Shown here: positions 43,417-49,493 of the stretch, one piece after another
How positions within the stretch are numbered: the stretch's first letter is position 1
Layout of the letters: the number at the start of each line of letters is the position of its first letter
NCBI RefSeq assembly: GCF_019458805.1
Contig: NZ_JAIBOA010000008.1
Location: 124,001-188,000 of the forward strand
From: Actinomadura parmotrematis
GTDB lineage: Bacteria > Actinomycetota > Actinomycetes > Streptosporangiales > Streptosporangiaceae
Length of the DNA stretch: 64,000 nt
Direction: 5' to 3'
Position numbers and translations under genes: made by a program
The notes under the pieces: generated by a model
What the model saw: only the letters and a program-made list of their open reading frames with translations
The model's database searches: none
What the model was told of the DNA's origin: nothing

Positions 43417-44205
43417 ATGCCCGAAGGCGACGTCGTCTGGAAGGCCGCCCGGCGCCTGCACGAGGCGCTCGCCGGGCGGACGCTGACGCGCACCGACTTC
43501 CGGGTGCCCCGCTACGCCACCGCCGACCTCGCCGGGCGCGGCGTCGTGGACACCGTCTCGTACGGCAAGCACCTGCTCACCCGCGTCGAGGGCGGCGTCA
43601 CGGTGCACACGCACCTGAGGATGGACGGCCGGTGGAGCGTCCAGCGGCCCGGTCCGGCGCCCCGCGACCACCGCGTCCGGCTCGTCCTCGCCAACGCCGG
43701 GGCGCAGGCCGTCGGCTACTCGCTCGGCGTCGTGGAGCTGCTGCCCACCGACCGCGAGGACGGCGTCGTCGGGCACCTCGGTCCCGACCTGCTCGGCGAC
43801 GGCTGGGGCGCGGACACGGCCGCCGAGGCCGTCCGGCGCCTCGCCGAGCAGCCCGACCGCGCCATCGGCGAGGCGCTGCTCGACCAGACGCGCCTCGCCG
43901 GCATCGGCAACATCTACAAGGCCGAGATCCTGTTCCTGCGCGGCACGGACCCCTGGACGGCCGTCCGCGACGTCCCCGACCTGCCCGGCATGGTCGACCT
44001 GGCGCACCGGCTGATGTTCGCCAACCGGGCCCGCACCGGGCACGTCACCACCGGCGACGTCCGGCCGGGCCGCCGCTGGTGGGCCTACGGGCGCGGCGGG
44101 AAGCCCTGCCGCCGCTGCGGGACGCGGATCCGCCAGGGCGAGCAGGCGTCCGGCGTCGGCGAGCGGGTCGTCTACTGGTGCCCGCGCTGCCAGCCGCGCC
44201 GCTGA
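43417..44205 (+). CDS. nei: Fpg/Nei-family DNA glycosylase (endonuclease VIII-like)
   Basis: The enzyme removes oxidised bases and cuts the abasic strand. The 262-residue protein starts 'MPEGDVV', where Pro2 is the catalytic nucleophile and Glu3 the general acid. The helix-two-turn-helix region holds 'LDQTRLAGIGNIYKAEILF', and a C-terminal zinc finger has 'PCRRCG' and 'WCPRC'. The MPEGD start points to Nei rather than Fpg. It is translationally linked to the Rrf2 gene. Its 3' end overlaps the tail of the opposite sigma-factor remnant by 34 bp. Confidence 0.95.
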   Translation: MPEGDVVWKAARRLHEALAGRTLTRTDFRVPRYATADLAGRGVVDTVSYGKHLLTRVEGGVTVHTHLRMDGRWSVQRPGPAPRDHRVRLVLANAGAQAVGYSLGVVELLPTDREDGVVGHLGPDLLGDGWGADTAAEAVRRLAEQPDRAIGEALLDQTRLAGIGNIYKAEILFLRGTDPWTAVRDVPDLPGMVDLAHRLMFANRARTGHVTTGDVRPGRRWWAYGRGGKPCRRCGTRIRQGEQASGVGERVVYWCPRCQPRR

Positions 44206-45392
44206 GGCAGCGCGTCGCGGCGGGCGCGCAGGAAGTCCCGCTCGGCGCGGTTGCCGGTGCGCTCCTCGGCCGCCCGGTACGCCTCGGCGGCCTCGGCGCG
44301 GCGGCCGAGCCGGGCGAGCAGGTCGGCGCGGACGGCGTGGAAGGTGTAGAGGCGGTCGAGGTCCAGGGCGTCCACGGCGGCGAGGGCGGCCGCGGGGCCG
44401 TCCACCTCGGCGAGCGCGACGGCCCGGTTGAGCGCGGCGACCGGCGTCGGCGCGCAGGCCAGGAGCAGGTCGTAGAGGGCGAGGACCTGGCGCCAGTCGG
44501 TGGGCGGCGGGTCGGTGTGCACCGCGTTGATCGCCGCCTGGAGCTGGTACGGGCCGGGGGCGCCGCGCCGCAGGCAGCGGCGGACGAGGGCGCGGCCCTC
44601 CTCGATCAGCGCGGCGTCCTAGCGGGCGCGGTCCTGCGCGGGCAGCGGCACGAGCTCGCCCGCCGGGCCGGTGCGGGCGGGGCGGCGGCCCTCCAGCAGC
44701 AGCATGAGGGCGAGCAGGCCGAGCGCCTCGGGCTCGTCGGGCATGAGACCGGCGAGCAGCCGGGCGAGCCGGATCGCCTCCGCGCACGTCCCGGCGTCCG
44801 CCAGGTCGGGGCCGGCGGCGGCGGTGTACCCGGCGTTGAAGATCAGGTAGAGCACCGCGAGGACGGCCCGCAGCCGGTCCGGCAGGTCGGCCTCGGCCGG
44901 GACGCGGTAGGGGACGCCGGCCGCGCGGATCTTGGCCTTGGCGCGCACCAGCCGCTGCGCCATCGTCGCCTCGGGCACCACGAAGGCGCGGGCGATCTCG
45001 GCGGTGGACAGGCCGCCGAGCAGCCGCAGGGTGAGCGCGACCCGCGCCTCCGCGGCGAGCGCCGGATGGCAGCAGGTGAAGATCAGCCGGAGCCGGTCGT
45101 CGCGCACGGGGCCCTCCTCGGTGTCCGGCGGGGCGTGCAGGAGCGCCGCCTCGGCCTGCCGGGCGCCCCGGGTCGCCTCGCGGCGCAGCCGGTCGACGGC
45201 CCGGCGGCGCGCGGTGGTGAGGATCCAGCCGGCCGGGCTCGGCGGGACGCCGTCGCGCGGCCAGCGGTCCAGCGCGACGGCGAAGGCGTCCTGGACGGCC
45301 TCCTCGGCGAGGTCGAGGTCGCCGAGGAGGCCGGCCAGGACGGCGACGGCGCGGCCGTACTCGCGCCGGAACACCTCCTCGACGCTCGTCAC
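44172..45392 (-). pseudogene. ECF42-like sigma factor gene interrupted by an in-frame amber codon
   Basis: From GTG 45392 the frame encodes 257 residues with sigma region 2 ('[20 protein letters not shown]', '[17 protein letters not shown]') and region 4 ('[20 protein letters not shown]'). It stops at TAG 44621-44619 just after 'PLPAQDRAR'. The same frame continues past the stop for about 149 residues of clear family sequence ('DAALIEEGRALVRRCLRRGA', 'AAINAVHTDPPPTDW', TPR-like 'RYTFHAVRADLLARLG'-type segment). Relatives have Trp at the stop position, so TGG has probably become TAG. The C-terminal TPR-like extension is a hallmark of ECF42 and is reported to matter for activity, so the truncated protein may be inactive. 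Amber readthrough or a sequencing error is possible. It overlaps its DGPF partner by 4 bp. Confidence 0.85.
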
Positions 45393-45742
45393 GCGCCCTC
45401 GGCGAAGTGGAACGGCCGGACCTCGATCGGCAGCGTGGTCGCCCCGGCGAGCCGCTCGCCCCACTTCAGCGCGGCGTCGAGGTCGGGCGCCCGCACGATG
45501 GTGAACCCGCCGAGGTACTCCTTGGCCTCGGCGTAGGGCCCGTCGGTCAGGACCGTCCCGCCGCCCTCCGCGCGCAGCACGGTCGCCGTCGCGGGGGCCT
45601 CCAGGCCGCCGGAGAACACCCACGCCCCCGCGTCCCGCATCTCGGCGTTCAGGACCTTCAGGTCGGCGTCGATCCGCGCCAGCACCGCGTCGTCCGGCCG
45701 CGGCCCCTCCGGCTGCATGACGCTGAGCAGGTAGTGCTTCAT
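45389..45742 (-). CDS. YCII-related (DGPF-type) protein, partner of ECF42-like sigma factor
   Basis: The 117-residue protein begins '[13 protein letters not shown]' and has '[18 protein letters not shown]', the DGPF/DGPY motif of YCII-fold proteins encoded with ECF42 sigma genes. Such proteins are usually targets of the sigma factor. ATG 45742 has GAGGAC 6 bp upstream. It is the first gene of the operon and overlaps the sigma start (GTGA). The biochemical role is unknown. Confidence 0.9.
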
Positions 45743-46249: not shown

Positions 46250-46413
46250 GGTCCCGCCCCTCCGGCGTCCCGGGAGGTCGGAACGTGTCAAGGGCGTTCC
46301 TGCGGGTAAGCGGCGCCCGCCACTGCGATTCCACCCCGCCACCCGCACACCAGCGGCACCGACACGAGGGGGACCGACATGGGAACGCCGGAACCGAAGG
46401 ACGGAGGCGGCCG

Positions 46414-47076
46414 ATGCTGATGCTGACCGTGCCGGGGGTCTACCGGCCGCAGACCGACACCCGGCTGCTCTGCGAGGCGCTCCGCACCGCGTCCGTCGCG
46501 CCGGGCGCGGCGCTGCTCGACGTGTGCACCGGCAGCGGCGCCGTCGCGATCGCCGGGGCGCTCCTCGGCGCGCGCAGCGCCACCGCCGTGGACCTGTCGC
46601 GGCGCGCCGCGCTGACCGCCCGCGCCAACGCCCGCCTGCGCCGCGTGAACGTGCGGGTGCTGCGCGGCGACCTGTTCGGGCCCGTCGCGGGCGAGCGGTT
46701 CGACGTCATCACCGCCAACCCGCCCTACGTGCCGTGCGACCGGCCGCCGGGCGCGCACAGCCGGGCGCGGGCCTGGGACGCCGGCCGGGACGGGCGTGAC
46801 GGCATCGACCGCATCTGCGCCGGCGCGGCGGAGCTGCTCGCGCCCGGCGGCACCCTGCTGATGGTGCACTCGGCCGTCTGCGGTGTGGCCGAGACGCTCG
46901 GGACGCTGCGCGAGCGGAATCTCAAGGCCGCCGTGGTGGCGCGCCGCACGATCCCGTTCGGCCCGGTGATGCGCTCCCGGGCCGCCGACCTGAAGGCGTG
47001 GGGGCTTCTCGCCCCCGGCCAGGAGCACGAGGAAGTGGTGGTGATCCGTGCCGACCGAGCCGAGAAGCGCGGCTGA
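46414..47076 (+). CDS. HemK/PrmC-like class I methyltransferase
   Basis: The 220-residue protein has SAM motif I 'LLDVCTGSGAVAI', an acidic motif II, and the catalytic 'ANPPYVP' (N-P-P-Y) of enzymes that methylate amide or amine nitrogens. The N-terminal helical domain of PrmC is absent, so this is probably not the release-factor methylase. GGAGG lies 6 bp before ATG 46414. A 13-codon upstream frame with its own ribosome site overlaps the start. It is followed by a CDGSH gene overlapping by 29 bp. Confidence 0.85.
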   Translation: MLMLTVPGVYRPQTDTRLLCEALRTASVAPGAALLDVCTGSGAVAIAGALLGARSATAVDLSRRAALTARANARLRRVNVRVLRGDLFGPVAGERFDVITANPPYVPCDRPPGAHSRARAWDAGRDGRDGIDRICAGAAELLAPGGTLLMVHSAVCGVAETLGTLRERNLKAAVVARRTIPFGPVMRSRAADLKAWGLLAPGQEHEEVVVIRADRAEKRG

Positions 47077-47305
47077 CGGCGCGCCGCGGCGCGTCCTGCT
47101 GGACCCGGCCGGCCCGGTGCTGGTGGAGGGCCCGGTCGAGGCCGTCCTGCCGGACGGCTCGACGGTGGTGTCCGACCGGTTCATGGTGGCGCTCTGCACG
47201 TGCCGCCGCAGCCGGCGGTTCCCGTTCTGCGACACCAGCCACCGGCGCAAGGTGCGGTCGGGGGCCGCCCGGGAGGACTCCCCGGACGGCCCGCCGGACG
47301 CCTGA
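47048..47305 (+). CDS. CDGSH iron-sulphur domain protein
   Basis: The 85-residue protein carries the CDGSH motif CTCRRSRRFPFCDTSH, with Cys50, Cys52, Cys61 and His65 as expected ligands of a [2Fe-2S] cluster. CDGSH proteins transfer electrons or clusters. The GTG start 47048 lies within the end of the methyltransferase gene, so translation is coupled. Its close neighbour on the other strand is a predicted diiron oxidase, for which it may be an electron donor (inference). Confidence 0.92.
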   Translation: MPTEPRSAADGAPRRVLLDPAGPVLVEGPVEAVLPDGSTVVSDRFMVALCTCRRSRRFPFCDTSHRRKVRSGAAREDSPDGPPDA

Positions 47306-47307
47306 TC

Positions 47308-48336
47308 TCAGCCCGCCGCGGGCCCGTCCGGAAGGGGGGCCCGCAGCGAGCTGCGGCCCGCGCGCCAGGACGCCAGCAGGTGGCCGCCGAGGCGCTCCTC
47401 CAGCAGCTCGGTGGCCTGCACGCCGAAGACGACGTCGGCGGCGAGCCCGGGCTCGCGGTCCAGCAGGTCGCCGATCACGTCGCGGCGGAGGACCTGCTCG
47501 TGGACGGCGTCGGCCTCGATGTGCTCGGTGAAGAACAGCACGCACTCGGGGGCGGCGCCGAAGCGCTCCAGCGCGACGGCCATGCGGTGCGCGCTCGGCG
47601 CCGTGGTGATCTCCGCGGCGGCGAAGTGCCCGACCATGGCGGCGCGCAGCGACCGGTGCAGGCCGAACAGCGACATCATGTTGACGGTGGCGAGCGCGGC
47701 GGCCGGGACGGCGTCGAAGTAGGCCAGGTAGCCGTCGTCCAGGCCGGCGCCGCGCAGCAGGTCGGCGAACAGCCGCGCGTGGACGCGCTCGGCGCGCCCG
47801 CCCCCGTACTCGTCGAACTCCACCGCCACCAGGGACGCCTTGGCGCGGCCCTCCAGGCGCGGGATCAGCCAGGCGTGCGGGTCGGCCTCCTTCAGGTGGT
47901 ACAGCGACCGGTGGACGAAGTACTCGCGCATCTGCCACCAGGCGCCCTCGTCCTTGAGGTGGTGGGAGACGCCGCGCGCGTCGAGGTCCTCCACCAGCAG
48001 GGCGTCCAGCGTGCCGGCGACATCGTCGCCGCCCGGCACGCCGGCGCGCAGCGCGCCCAGGAACACCCGTTCCAGGGCGGCGCGGAACGCCAGCAGGCCG
48101 AGGTCCCACTCCCAGTCGGCGTCCACGCCGTCGAAGCCCCGGTAGTGCAGCTCGTAGCAGATGTAGAGGGCCGCCTGGAGGTCGTCGCCGAAAGGGTCCG
48201 CACCGTCGGCGCCGGCGGGCGGGACGGGGTGGCCGGGCGGGTGGCGCAGGGCCGTCACGACGGCCTCCGACAGCGGGCCGCGCGGCGGCGGCAGCGGCGC
48301 CGCCGTGCGAGATGGGGTGAGCGTGCTCTCGGTCAT
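47308..48336 (-). CDS. Iron-containing redox enzyme, haem-oxygenase-like diiron family
   Basis: The 342-residue protein matches the 'iron-containing redox enzyme' family, all-helical haem-oxygenase-like diiron oxidases. Candidate ligand segments are 'CYELHYRGFDG', 'VEFDEYGGGR', 'HRSLYHLKEADPH' and 'FFTEHIEADAVHE'. Known members oxidise amino acids or fatty acids using a diiron centre. GGAGGAG precedes ATG 48336, which overlaps the ligase stop by 4 bp. It ends 3 bp from the convergent CDGSH gene. Confidence 0.85.
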   Translation of the reverse strand: MTESTLTPSRTAAPLPPPRGPLSEAVVTALRHPPGHPVPPAGADGADPFGDDLQAALYICYELHYRGFDGVDADWEWDLGLLAFRAALERVFLGALRAGVPGGDDVAGTLDALLVEDLDARGVSHHLKDEGAWWQMREYFVHRSLYHLKEADPHAWLIPRLEGRAKASLVAVEFDEYGGGRAERVHARLFADLLRGAGLDDGYLAYFDAVPAAALATVNMMSLFGLHRSLRAAMVGHFAAAEITTAPSAHRMAVALERFGAAPECVLFFTEHIEADAVHEQVLRRDVIGDLLDREPGLAADVVFGVQATELLEERLGGHLLASWRAGRSSLRAPLPDGPAAG

Positions 48337-49493
48337 GGATCTCCTCCTTGCAGGGGGTGGGCGGCGATCGTGTCGAGCAGGGCGGGCAGGCCGCGCGCGG
48401 CGGCGCGGCGCTGGCGGTCGGCGCCGGTGCCCTCACGGTCGAGGCGTCCGACGAGGGTGCGGACGGCGGCATCGTCGCCGGCGTCCTCCAGGGCGTCGCG
48501 GACGTGGTCCAGCAGCTCGTCCAGCAGATCGCGGGCCGGGACGCGCTGCTCGCGCACGGGGTGCACGGCGGGACCGGCGAGGCCGTACCGGGCGGCCGAC
48601 CAGACGGCGGCCGCGCAGACCTGGTCGTCGGCTGCGGGCGCCTCGCGGCCCGCGGCGAGGTCGTCCAGCGCGGTGCGGACGAGCGCCCGGGTCAGGGCCG
48701 CTTGCAGGACGGCGTCGGCGGGCGCGGCGGCGGTGTCGGCCGCCCGCACCTCCACCGTCGGGAACCGCGACGAGGGCCGGGCCAGCCAGAACGTCATGGC
48801 CTCGTCCACCAGCACGCCGCACTCGACGAGGCGTTCCAGGCGGGCGCGGTAGGCGGCGGCGGACCCGAAGCGCGGCGGGACGCCCGAGCCGGGGAAGCGG
48901 GCCTGCTCCAGCATCCGCCAGCTCTGGTAGCCGGTGTCGCGGCCCCGGTCGGACGGCGAGTTGGCCGACACCGCGAGCAGCGTCGGCAGCCACGGCCGCA
49001 GGTGGTCGGTGACCGCGACGGCGTGGTCCAGGTCGGGGACGCCGACGTGGACGTGGCAGCCGCAGCTCTCGTAGCCGCGCACGACCTGCTCGTACAGGTC
49101 CGCGATGGCGGTGAAGCGCTCCCCTTCGGTGAAGGGCGCGTCGGGGGCGGGCGCGACGGGCGTCCCGGTCGCGATCGGCAGCGCGCCCTCGGCCGCGGCG
49201 GCCGCCGCGAGGCGCGCGCGGCCGTCGGCGAGCTCGGCGCAGAGCGCGTCCAGGCTCGTGTGGACGCCGGTGACCGACTCGACCTGCGCCGCCGTCAGCT
49301 CGGCGCTGAACCGCGCCGCCGCGACGCCGCGCGACGCCCGCGCGCGCCGCAGCACCGGCCCGGCCCGCGCCACCGTCGCCCCGGTGGCCGGATCCACCAG
49401 CAGGAACTCCTCCTCGACGCCCATCGTGAGCGCGGCGGACGGCGCGCCGCGCTCGGCGGCGGCGCGGTCCTCGGCGCGGACGGTCGGTCCCAT
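48333..49493 (-). CDS. Carboxylate-amine ligase, glutamate-cysteine ligase 2 (YbdK) type
   Basis: The 386-residue protein has the YbdK/GCS2 signature 'MGVEEEFLLVDPATG' near residue 24 and 'CGCHVHVGVPD', where His and Glu bind Mg-ATP. These enzymes form gamma-glutamyl-amine bonds; in actinomycetes the product is often not glutathione. AGGAGA lies 5 bp before ATG 49493. It heads a two-gene operon with the haem-oxygenase-like gene. Substrate unknown. Confidence 0.9.
   Translation of the reverse strand: MGPTVRAEDRAAAERGAPSAALTMGVEEEFLLVDPATGATVARAGPVLRRARASRGVAAARFSAELTAAQVESVTGVHTSLDALCAELADGRARLAAAAAAEGALPIATGTPVAPAPDAPFTEGERFTAIADLYEQVVRGYESCGCHVHVGVPDLDHAVAVTDHLRPWLPTLLAVSANSPSDRGRDTGYQSWRMLEQARFPGSGVPPRFGSAAAYRARLERLVECGVLVDEAMTFWLARPSSRFPTVEVRAADTAAAPADAVLQAALTRALVRTALDDLAAGREAPAADDQVCAAAVWSAARYGLAGPAVHPVREQRVPARDLLDELLDHVRDALEDAGDDAAVRTLVGRLDREGTGADRQRRAAARGLPALLDTIAAHPLQGGDP

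Follow-up and report, generated by a model that had tools for sequence, protein, structure and literature searches.

What does a haem-oxygenase-like diiron oxidase/oxygenase (HDO) do beside an iron-sulfur protein, a methyltransferase (MTase) and a carboxylate-amine ligase? The question was raised by a 64,000-nucleotide stretch of the Actinomadura parmotrematis genome (contig NZ_JAIBOA010000008.1, positions 124,001 to 188,000), hereafter the window. Two plus-strand genes, for a small class I S-adenosylmethionine MTase (46414–47076) and a CDGSH (NEET-type) iron-sulfur protein (47048–47305), overlap by 29 bp. They converge on two minus-strand genes, for the HDO (47308–48336) and a GCS2/YbdK-type ligase (48333–49493), the latter overlapping the start of the HDO gene by 4 bp and probably forming one operon with it. 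Only 2 bp (47306–47307) separate the two pairs. An earlier sequence-only reading had described this four-gene layout, and all of its coordinates were confirmed. It had further proposed a small oxidative pathway acting on a glutamyl-linked amine or amino acid and finished by methylation. Comparison with 173 other HDO loci showed that HDO and CDGSH form the core of a conserved module, that the MTase is its usual third gene, and that the ligase is a clade-specific addition.

All four products scored above the cut-offs of their families. The HDO matched PF14518 with 191.6 bits (cut-off 28.9) and the CDGSH protein matched PF09360 with 62.2 bits (cut-off 29.5). The ligase matched PF04107 (145.8 bits, cut-off 21), NF010041 (368.3 bits, cut-off 332) and TIGR02050 (235.4 bits, cut-off 176.4), and the MTase matched the HemK2/MTQ2 profile TIGR00537 (102.7 bits, cut-off 87).

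The 173 loci comprised 35 from a sample of the phylum, 80 from named genomes (the best 80 of 354 relatives) and 58 from a sample of the class, which served as the hold-out set. The loci are related to each other, some species may occur in both the named and the unnamed sets, and the P values given here ignore phylogeny. The controls were 39 regions elsewhere in the hold-out genomes and were not drawn at random; several control contigs had come up in the ligase search and were chosen for that reason, which biases the controls towards GCS2 paralogues (5 of 39 hold one). CDGSH genes were counted from profiles of open reading frames, because the gene caller misses many short CDGSH genes. Within 3 kb of the HDO, a CDGSH gene was found in 142 of the 173 loci, an MTase in 111, a GCS2 ligase in 61, nearly all in the close clade, and a glycosyltransferase (GT) in 18, while 21 loci had none of these four. 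Neither HDO nor CDGSH was found in any of the 39 control regions.

The same association was seen at the level of whole genomes. An HDO match occurred in 39 of 198 genomes sampled from the phylum and in 70 of 148 genomes of the class (E 1e-20). Among these 148, the MTase was present in 24 genomes, all of which had the HDO (hypergeometric P 1.3e-9, ignoring phylogeny), and CDGSH was present in 67, of which 51 had the HDO; 50 of the 69 CDGSH matches lay within 2.5 kb of it. Of 40 genomes from the window's own genus, 33 contained the HDO, 30 the MTase and 23 a ligase of this type. In all 29 genomes with both MTase and HDO, the two genes lay no more than 500 bp apart; ligase and HDO did so in 16 of 22 genomes and then always shared a strand. 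One of the 30 MTase genomes had no HDO, and four of the 33 HDO genomes had no MTase. The commonest layout was GCS2> HDO> <CDGSH <MTase; HDO> MTase> CDGSH> and MTase> CDGSH> HDO> were also found. HDO, CDGSH and MTase stayed neighbours, often overlapping, despite many changes of order and strand. Random association, a doubt raised in the sequence-only reading, was ruled out by these counts, the association being kept across the 173 loci and in the class and genus sets.

The six predicted iron ligands of the HDO (E150, E176, H186, H272, D276, and H279) were invariant across 58 aligned HDOs. In a profile alignment they lined up, with the same spacing, on the ligands of SznF, which we take to be its iron-binding residues. 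The pattern E-x25-E-x9-H ... HxxxDxxH was complete in 172 of 174 HDOs; the two others were a fragment at a contig end (L067) and the most divergent match (L068, 35% identity). The loss of diiron ligands, the second doubt raised by the sequence-only reading, was thus not observed, and a degenerate oxidase was ruled out.

The AlphaFold2 model of the window HDO (mean pLDDT 94.4) displayed a haem-oxygenase-like helical fold. The best score in VIA-align was obtained with HrmI (Z 33.3, root-mean-square deviation 2.3, 302 aligned), followed by SznF (Z 29.7, 2.9, 304 aligned) and RohS (Z 28.6, 2.7, 277 aligned), at identities of 14–22% in the structural alignments. The Z scores were 24.6–25.6 for FlcD, 20.2 for CADD, 17.1 for UndA, and 16.4 for BesC. 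The N-terminal helical part aligned as well (model residues 20–327 on HrmI and 10–338 on SznF), whereas CADD, UndA and BesC aligned only from about residue 103. FlcD aligned over residues 10–329, so this feature is not unique to N-oxygenases. Since HrmI, SznF and RohS are N-oxygenases and have the closest folds, our best guess is that the window HDO oxidises a nitrogen, although fold likeness by itself shows no function. Chemistry of the UndA, BesC or CADD type is less likely, as their fold scores were far below those of the three N-oxygenases.

SznF and RohS act in streptozotocin and azomycin biosynthesis, respectively, and HrmI presumably belongs to hormaomycin biosynthesis. The window HDO shares with these enzymes the PF14518 family, the ligand spacing (as in SznF) and the alignable N-terminal helical part. 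Unlike them, it is paired with a CDGSH gene, lies in what appear to be stress islands, and is of a type as widespread as the class counts above indicate.

Haem-oxygenase-like diiron enzymes need two electrons per cycle, and CDGSH proteins carry a [2Fe-2S] cluster. The 3Cys-1His motif, CxC-x2-S-x3-P-x-CDTSH in the window, was present in all 143 CDGSH proteins encoded no more than 3 kb from an HDO, that of the window among them. The same motif characterizes mitoNEET/CISD proteins; however, the window protein has only 85 aa and is encoded beside an enzyme that activates O2. According to an extract of one report, mitoNEET takes electrons from FMNH2 and hands them to O2 or ubiquinone (PMC9490426). 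An extract of another describes assays of RohS with an artificial donor, phenazine methosulfate with NADH (PMC10724926). A gene for an NADPH-dependent flavin mononucleotide (FMN) reductase (PF03358) was located within 3 kb of the HDO in 7 of the 173 loci (L034, L072, L125, L129, L136, L141, and L143) and is a possible electron source. From the gene pairing and the intact motif, we reason that electrons may pass from CDGSH to the HDO. In the open-access library searched, no paper linked CDGSH with HDO, the family-name search covering titles and the beginnings of abstracts only, and searches there for papers pairing CDGSH with HemK2, Streptomyces gene clusters or smegmatis gave nothing relevant.

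The promoters suggested when the module might be expressed. A relaxed SigB/SigF-type motif, G[GT][TG]T-N13-17-GGG[TA]A, was counted only before genes opening an operon. It preceded 68 of 244 operon-leading module genes (11/40, 39/135 and 18/69 in the three sets), and the reversed motif preceded none of the 244; in control genes, the motif and its reverse were found 8 and 7 times, respectively, in 387. For the hold-out set, 18/69 module leaders compared with 8/387 control genes of the same genomes gave P = 1.3e-10. The other operon leaders in the hold-out neighbourhoods were also enriched (43/595, against the same 8/387; P 0.00016), so the loci look like stress islands. In a first scan the motif was found at 9 of 65 GCS2 genes but also at 93 of 1414 other local genes, and the signal became clear only with operon leaders and distant controls. 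These counts support the idea that the module is under general-stress control of the SigB/SigF type.

In the window, a candidate promoter of this type, GTGT (46285–46288)-N15-GGGTA (46304–46308), was located on the plus strand 105 bp before the MTase start. It fits forms tabulated for SigF of Mycobacterium smegmatis, whose GTTT-N15-GGGTA promoter type resembles that of the module, in an extract of the published regulon (PMC4694148). The extract lists MSMEG_1771 ("methylase, putative") and MSMEG_1772 as controlled by SigF, with GTTT-N15-GGGTA at 29 bp from the start of the former and 696 bp from the start of the latter. The two distances would mark a single site and leave space for a gene of the length of this MTase. 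As a lead from this partial source, MSMEG_1771–1772 may correspond to the MTase and CDGSH genes. The same extract also lists an FAD-dependent oxidoreductase (MSMEG_0670) and a dehydrogenase (MSMEG_0671) as regulon members. A search of 396 genomes of that genus for the published M. smegmatis promoter found it in none.

The neighbouring genes were also of a general-stress character. Clustering of the neighbours, with family scans of some of them, revealed FAD-Rieske oxidoreductases, zinc alcohol dehydrogenases and hemerythrin-like proteins near the HDO, along with SigB/SigF-type sigma factors, anti-sigma-like genes, SpoIIE-type phosphatase genes and Ku/LigD. Markers were picked from the first two locus sets and tested on the third within 10 kb (58 hold-out loci against 39 controls). 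A SigB/SigF gene was found at 14 hold-out loci and no control (P 0.00036), or at 14 and one when an iterated profile was used. Zinc alcohol dehydrogenases were found at 17 and one (P 0.0005), GTs at 11 and none (P 0.002), and FAD-Rieske proteins at eight and none (P 0.013). STAS, PP2C, hemerythrin, Ku, CsbD, DUF4383 and further families were not enriched alone in the hold-out set. On the annotated Streptomyces plasmid p65_CHABEC, the MTase, CDGSH and HDO genes lie between two SigB/SigF/SigG genes. On a plasmid of Streptomyces sp. NBC_00984, the HDO, CDGSH and HemK2/MTQ2 MTase genes lie beside gas-vesicle genes and a Rieske protein gene. No biosynthetic cluster was recognised around the HDO, the similarity-clustered neighbours including many stress and redox genes; this came from the neighbour survey and not from a dedicated cluster search. 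This general-stress setting, missed by the sequence-only reading, points away from a niche biosynthetic cluster.

Two further gene groups were observed near the HDO. Gas-vesicle clusters (GvpA/J, GvpF/L, GvpG, and GvpK) occurred within 10 kb in 5 of the 173 loci (L151, L153, L157, where they were upstream of the HDO, L172, and L198) and in 0 of 39 controls; they were also noted at a Streptomyces plasmid locus (L249, 581–4414). Ku and LigD-type end-joining genes stood beside the HDO in one lineage (L059, L062, and L063), and Ku was 6–8 kb away in another (L160, L164, and L177).

The genes accompanying the HDO and CDGSH varied among lineages. The NPPY motif of the MTase (N102–Y105) was shared by at least 95% of the 92 orthologues in the alignment. 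In other families, where this HemK2-like form was missing, a PrmC-like MTase with a DPPW-type motif was often found beside HDO and CDGSH, and a third MTase class was located upstream in some GT-type loci. The GT-type lineage, to which relatives from the window's own family belong, had the order HDO> GT> <CDGSH, and 16 of 18 GT loci contained no HemK-type MTase. In L151 (9418–11856), the HDO was fused to a family-2-like GT in a single open frame of 813 aa. A search of the PDB with the GT led nowhere. We infer that the GT and MTase variants may provide alternative decorations of one product.

YbdK-type ligases make gamma-glutamyl amides. The window ligase resembles these GCS2 enzymes in exceeding the NF010041 and TIGR02050 cut-offs; it differs in being co-oriented with an HDO, an arrangement seen in one clade only. 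Its blocks G25–F30 (GVEEEF), H147/H149, R193, E248, and R250 were kept in at least 98% of 62 rows, and its PDB relatives were 1tt4 and 1r8g. None of the 58 hold-out loci had a GCS2 gene within 3 kb of the HDO. With 61 of 173 loci overall, an obligate role of the ligase was ruled out, and a glutamyl-linked amine or amino acid, as the sequence-only reading had it, cannot be the general rule for the substrate. A second ligase, 61% identical, was detected in the same genome (G000:C16:114165-115274), on a contig with no HDO match.

Taken together, a stress-induced oxidative pathway in which CDGSH donates electrons to an N-oxygenase-like HDO was proposed, which we consider a real possibility at somewhat less than an even chance. 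Stress, acting through a SigB/SigF-type sigma factor, would turn on the operons. The diiron centre of the HDO would activate O2, and the [2Fe-2S] cluster of CDGSH, probably refilled from NAD(P)H by a flavin reductase, would ferry single electrons to it. Judged from its closest structural relatives, the HDO would most likely oxidise a small amine or amino acid at its nitrogen. The HemK-type MTase would then methylate the product, with glycosylation taking this place in another lineage, and in the clade of the window the GCS2-type ligase may couple the amine, either as such or once oxidised, to glutamate or another amino acid. The direct basis consists of the genes present and their conserved co-occurrence, the intactness of ligands and motifs, the predicted fold and the setting of stress promoters and stress genes. 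From it we infer the CDGSH-to-HDO electron transfer, the N-oxygenation and a protective role; the substrate, the order of steps and the product are guesses. The small oxidative pathway of the sequence-only reading thus survives in part: CDGSH as donor and methylation fit the conserved trio of genes and the N-oxygenase folds, but the ligase is not constant.

The chief rival is modelled on DtpC of Acinetobacter baumannii: HDO and CDGSH would form a detoxifier that turns O2 or H2O2 into water at the diiron site, the electrons coming from NAD(P)H by way of flavin and CDGSH. There would be no dedicated product, and the MTase and ligase would be separate stress genes. According to an extract of the published study, DtpC is a predicted HDO whose gene is transcribed together with katE; it limits H2O2 in cells that have been dried, and its ligand residues are required (PMC13232832). 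Like the window HDO, it lies outside classical natural-product clusters and is tied to oxidative or drying stress; unlike it, DtpC accompanies katE, and the extract names no CDGSH or methyltransferase partner. The general-stress setting and the Ku/LigD repair genes beside the HDO in one lineage agree with such a detoxifier. However, the frequency of the MTase near the HDO, its several sequence forms and the overlap of the ligase with the HDO suggest chemistry beyond scavenging. The closest folds are those of N-oxygenases, and DtpC was likened to the window HDO by description, not by sequence. We regard the detoxifier as unlikely.

Another explanation concerns the MTase alone, which could be a protein N5-glutamine (or other) methyltransferase, with a protein target, possibly the HDO or some translation factor, in place of a small molecule. 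Its score above the HemK2/MTQ2 cut-off, the NPPY motif shared with HemK2/MTQ2 (N6AMT1), N6AMT1/HEMK2 as its closest PDB relative and the PrmC-like nature of the alternative MTase all favour this. Unlike HemK2/MTQ2, however, the window-type MTase tracks the HDO and not the translation machinery: all 24 class genomes with the MTase had the HDO, and few genomes of the genus had one without the other. A protein target is likewise considered unlikely.

The genes might also be independent members of a stress regulon, clustered only through shared regulation. The surroundings are rich in unrelated stress genes, and the promoter motif is enriched in the wider neighbourhoods as well. However, HDO, CDGSH and MTase stay together through rearrangements while other stress genes come and go, and shared regulation alone would not favour these particular neighbours, which makes this explanation improbable. 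Delivery of iron or an iron-sulfur cluster by CDGSH, loading or repairing a labile diiron site under stress instead of supplying electrons, is also improbable. In its favour, NEET proteins transfer clusters, and these clusters are labile (an extract of PMC6006223). The titles of crystal structures describe HrmI (9n1e) as partly loaded and SznF in apo and mononuclear forms, and a metallochaperone would likewise pair constantly with the HDO. However, the gene pairing is its sole support and fits electron donation equally.

Several observations weigh against the proposed electron transfer and stress-induced methylating pathway. In 31 of the 173 loci no CDGSH gene turned up within 3 kb of the HDO, although some of these loci are on short contigs and a remote or weak CDGSH would escape; the MTase was missing in 62 and GCS2 in 112. 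Sixteen CDGSH matches occurred in class genomes with no HDO, which means that CDGSH has other uses. The FMN reductase link came from few, related loci, and HemK-type enzymes are known as protein methyltransferases. As for the promoters, 176 of the 244 module leaders had no motif; in the window the only candidate was that of the MTase–CDGSH operon, in the weaker GTGT form, and no site matching the relaxed motif was found at the ligase–HDO operon.

Around the four genes, the window encodes a zinc-dependent alcohol dehydrogenase (PF08240, PF00107; 50138–51313, plus strand), given here as context and not claimed as a member of the module. Just 5′ of the MTase operon is a gene whose small product carries a ClpX-type C4 zinc finger (PF06689; 45878–46249, plus strand). 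Further away on the minus strand (44172–45742), a sigma-like gene stands next to a small gene; they are presumably ECF-type sigma-like and YCII-like, and seem split over two frames (44619–45392 and 44172–44522), possibly by a frameshift.

HDOs are known mostly from natural-product pathways. The module is made up of known enzyme families; we found no earlier description of their conserved combination in such a setting. In its fullest form, the proposal is that CDGSH is the dedicated redox partner of a widespread clade of HDO N-oxygenases and, with a HemK-type MTase, forms an actinobacterial stress pathway to an N-oxidised, methylated or glycosylated protective metabolite, extended by the ligase in one clade; as a whole, this is doubtful. 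The occurrence of CDGSH beside most HDOs of a phylum-wide clade makes it a candidate for their natural donor, and would give bacterial CDGSH proteins a job. With the stress setting, HDO chemistry would become part of core stress physiology instead of a source of niche products, in keeping with the recent study of DtpC.

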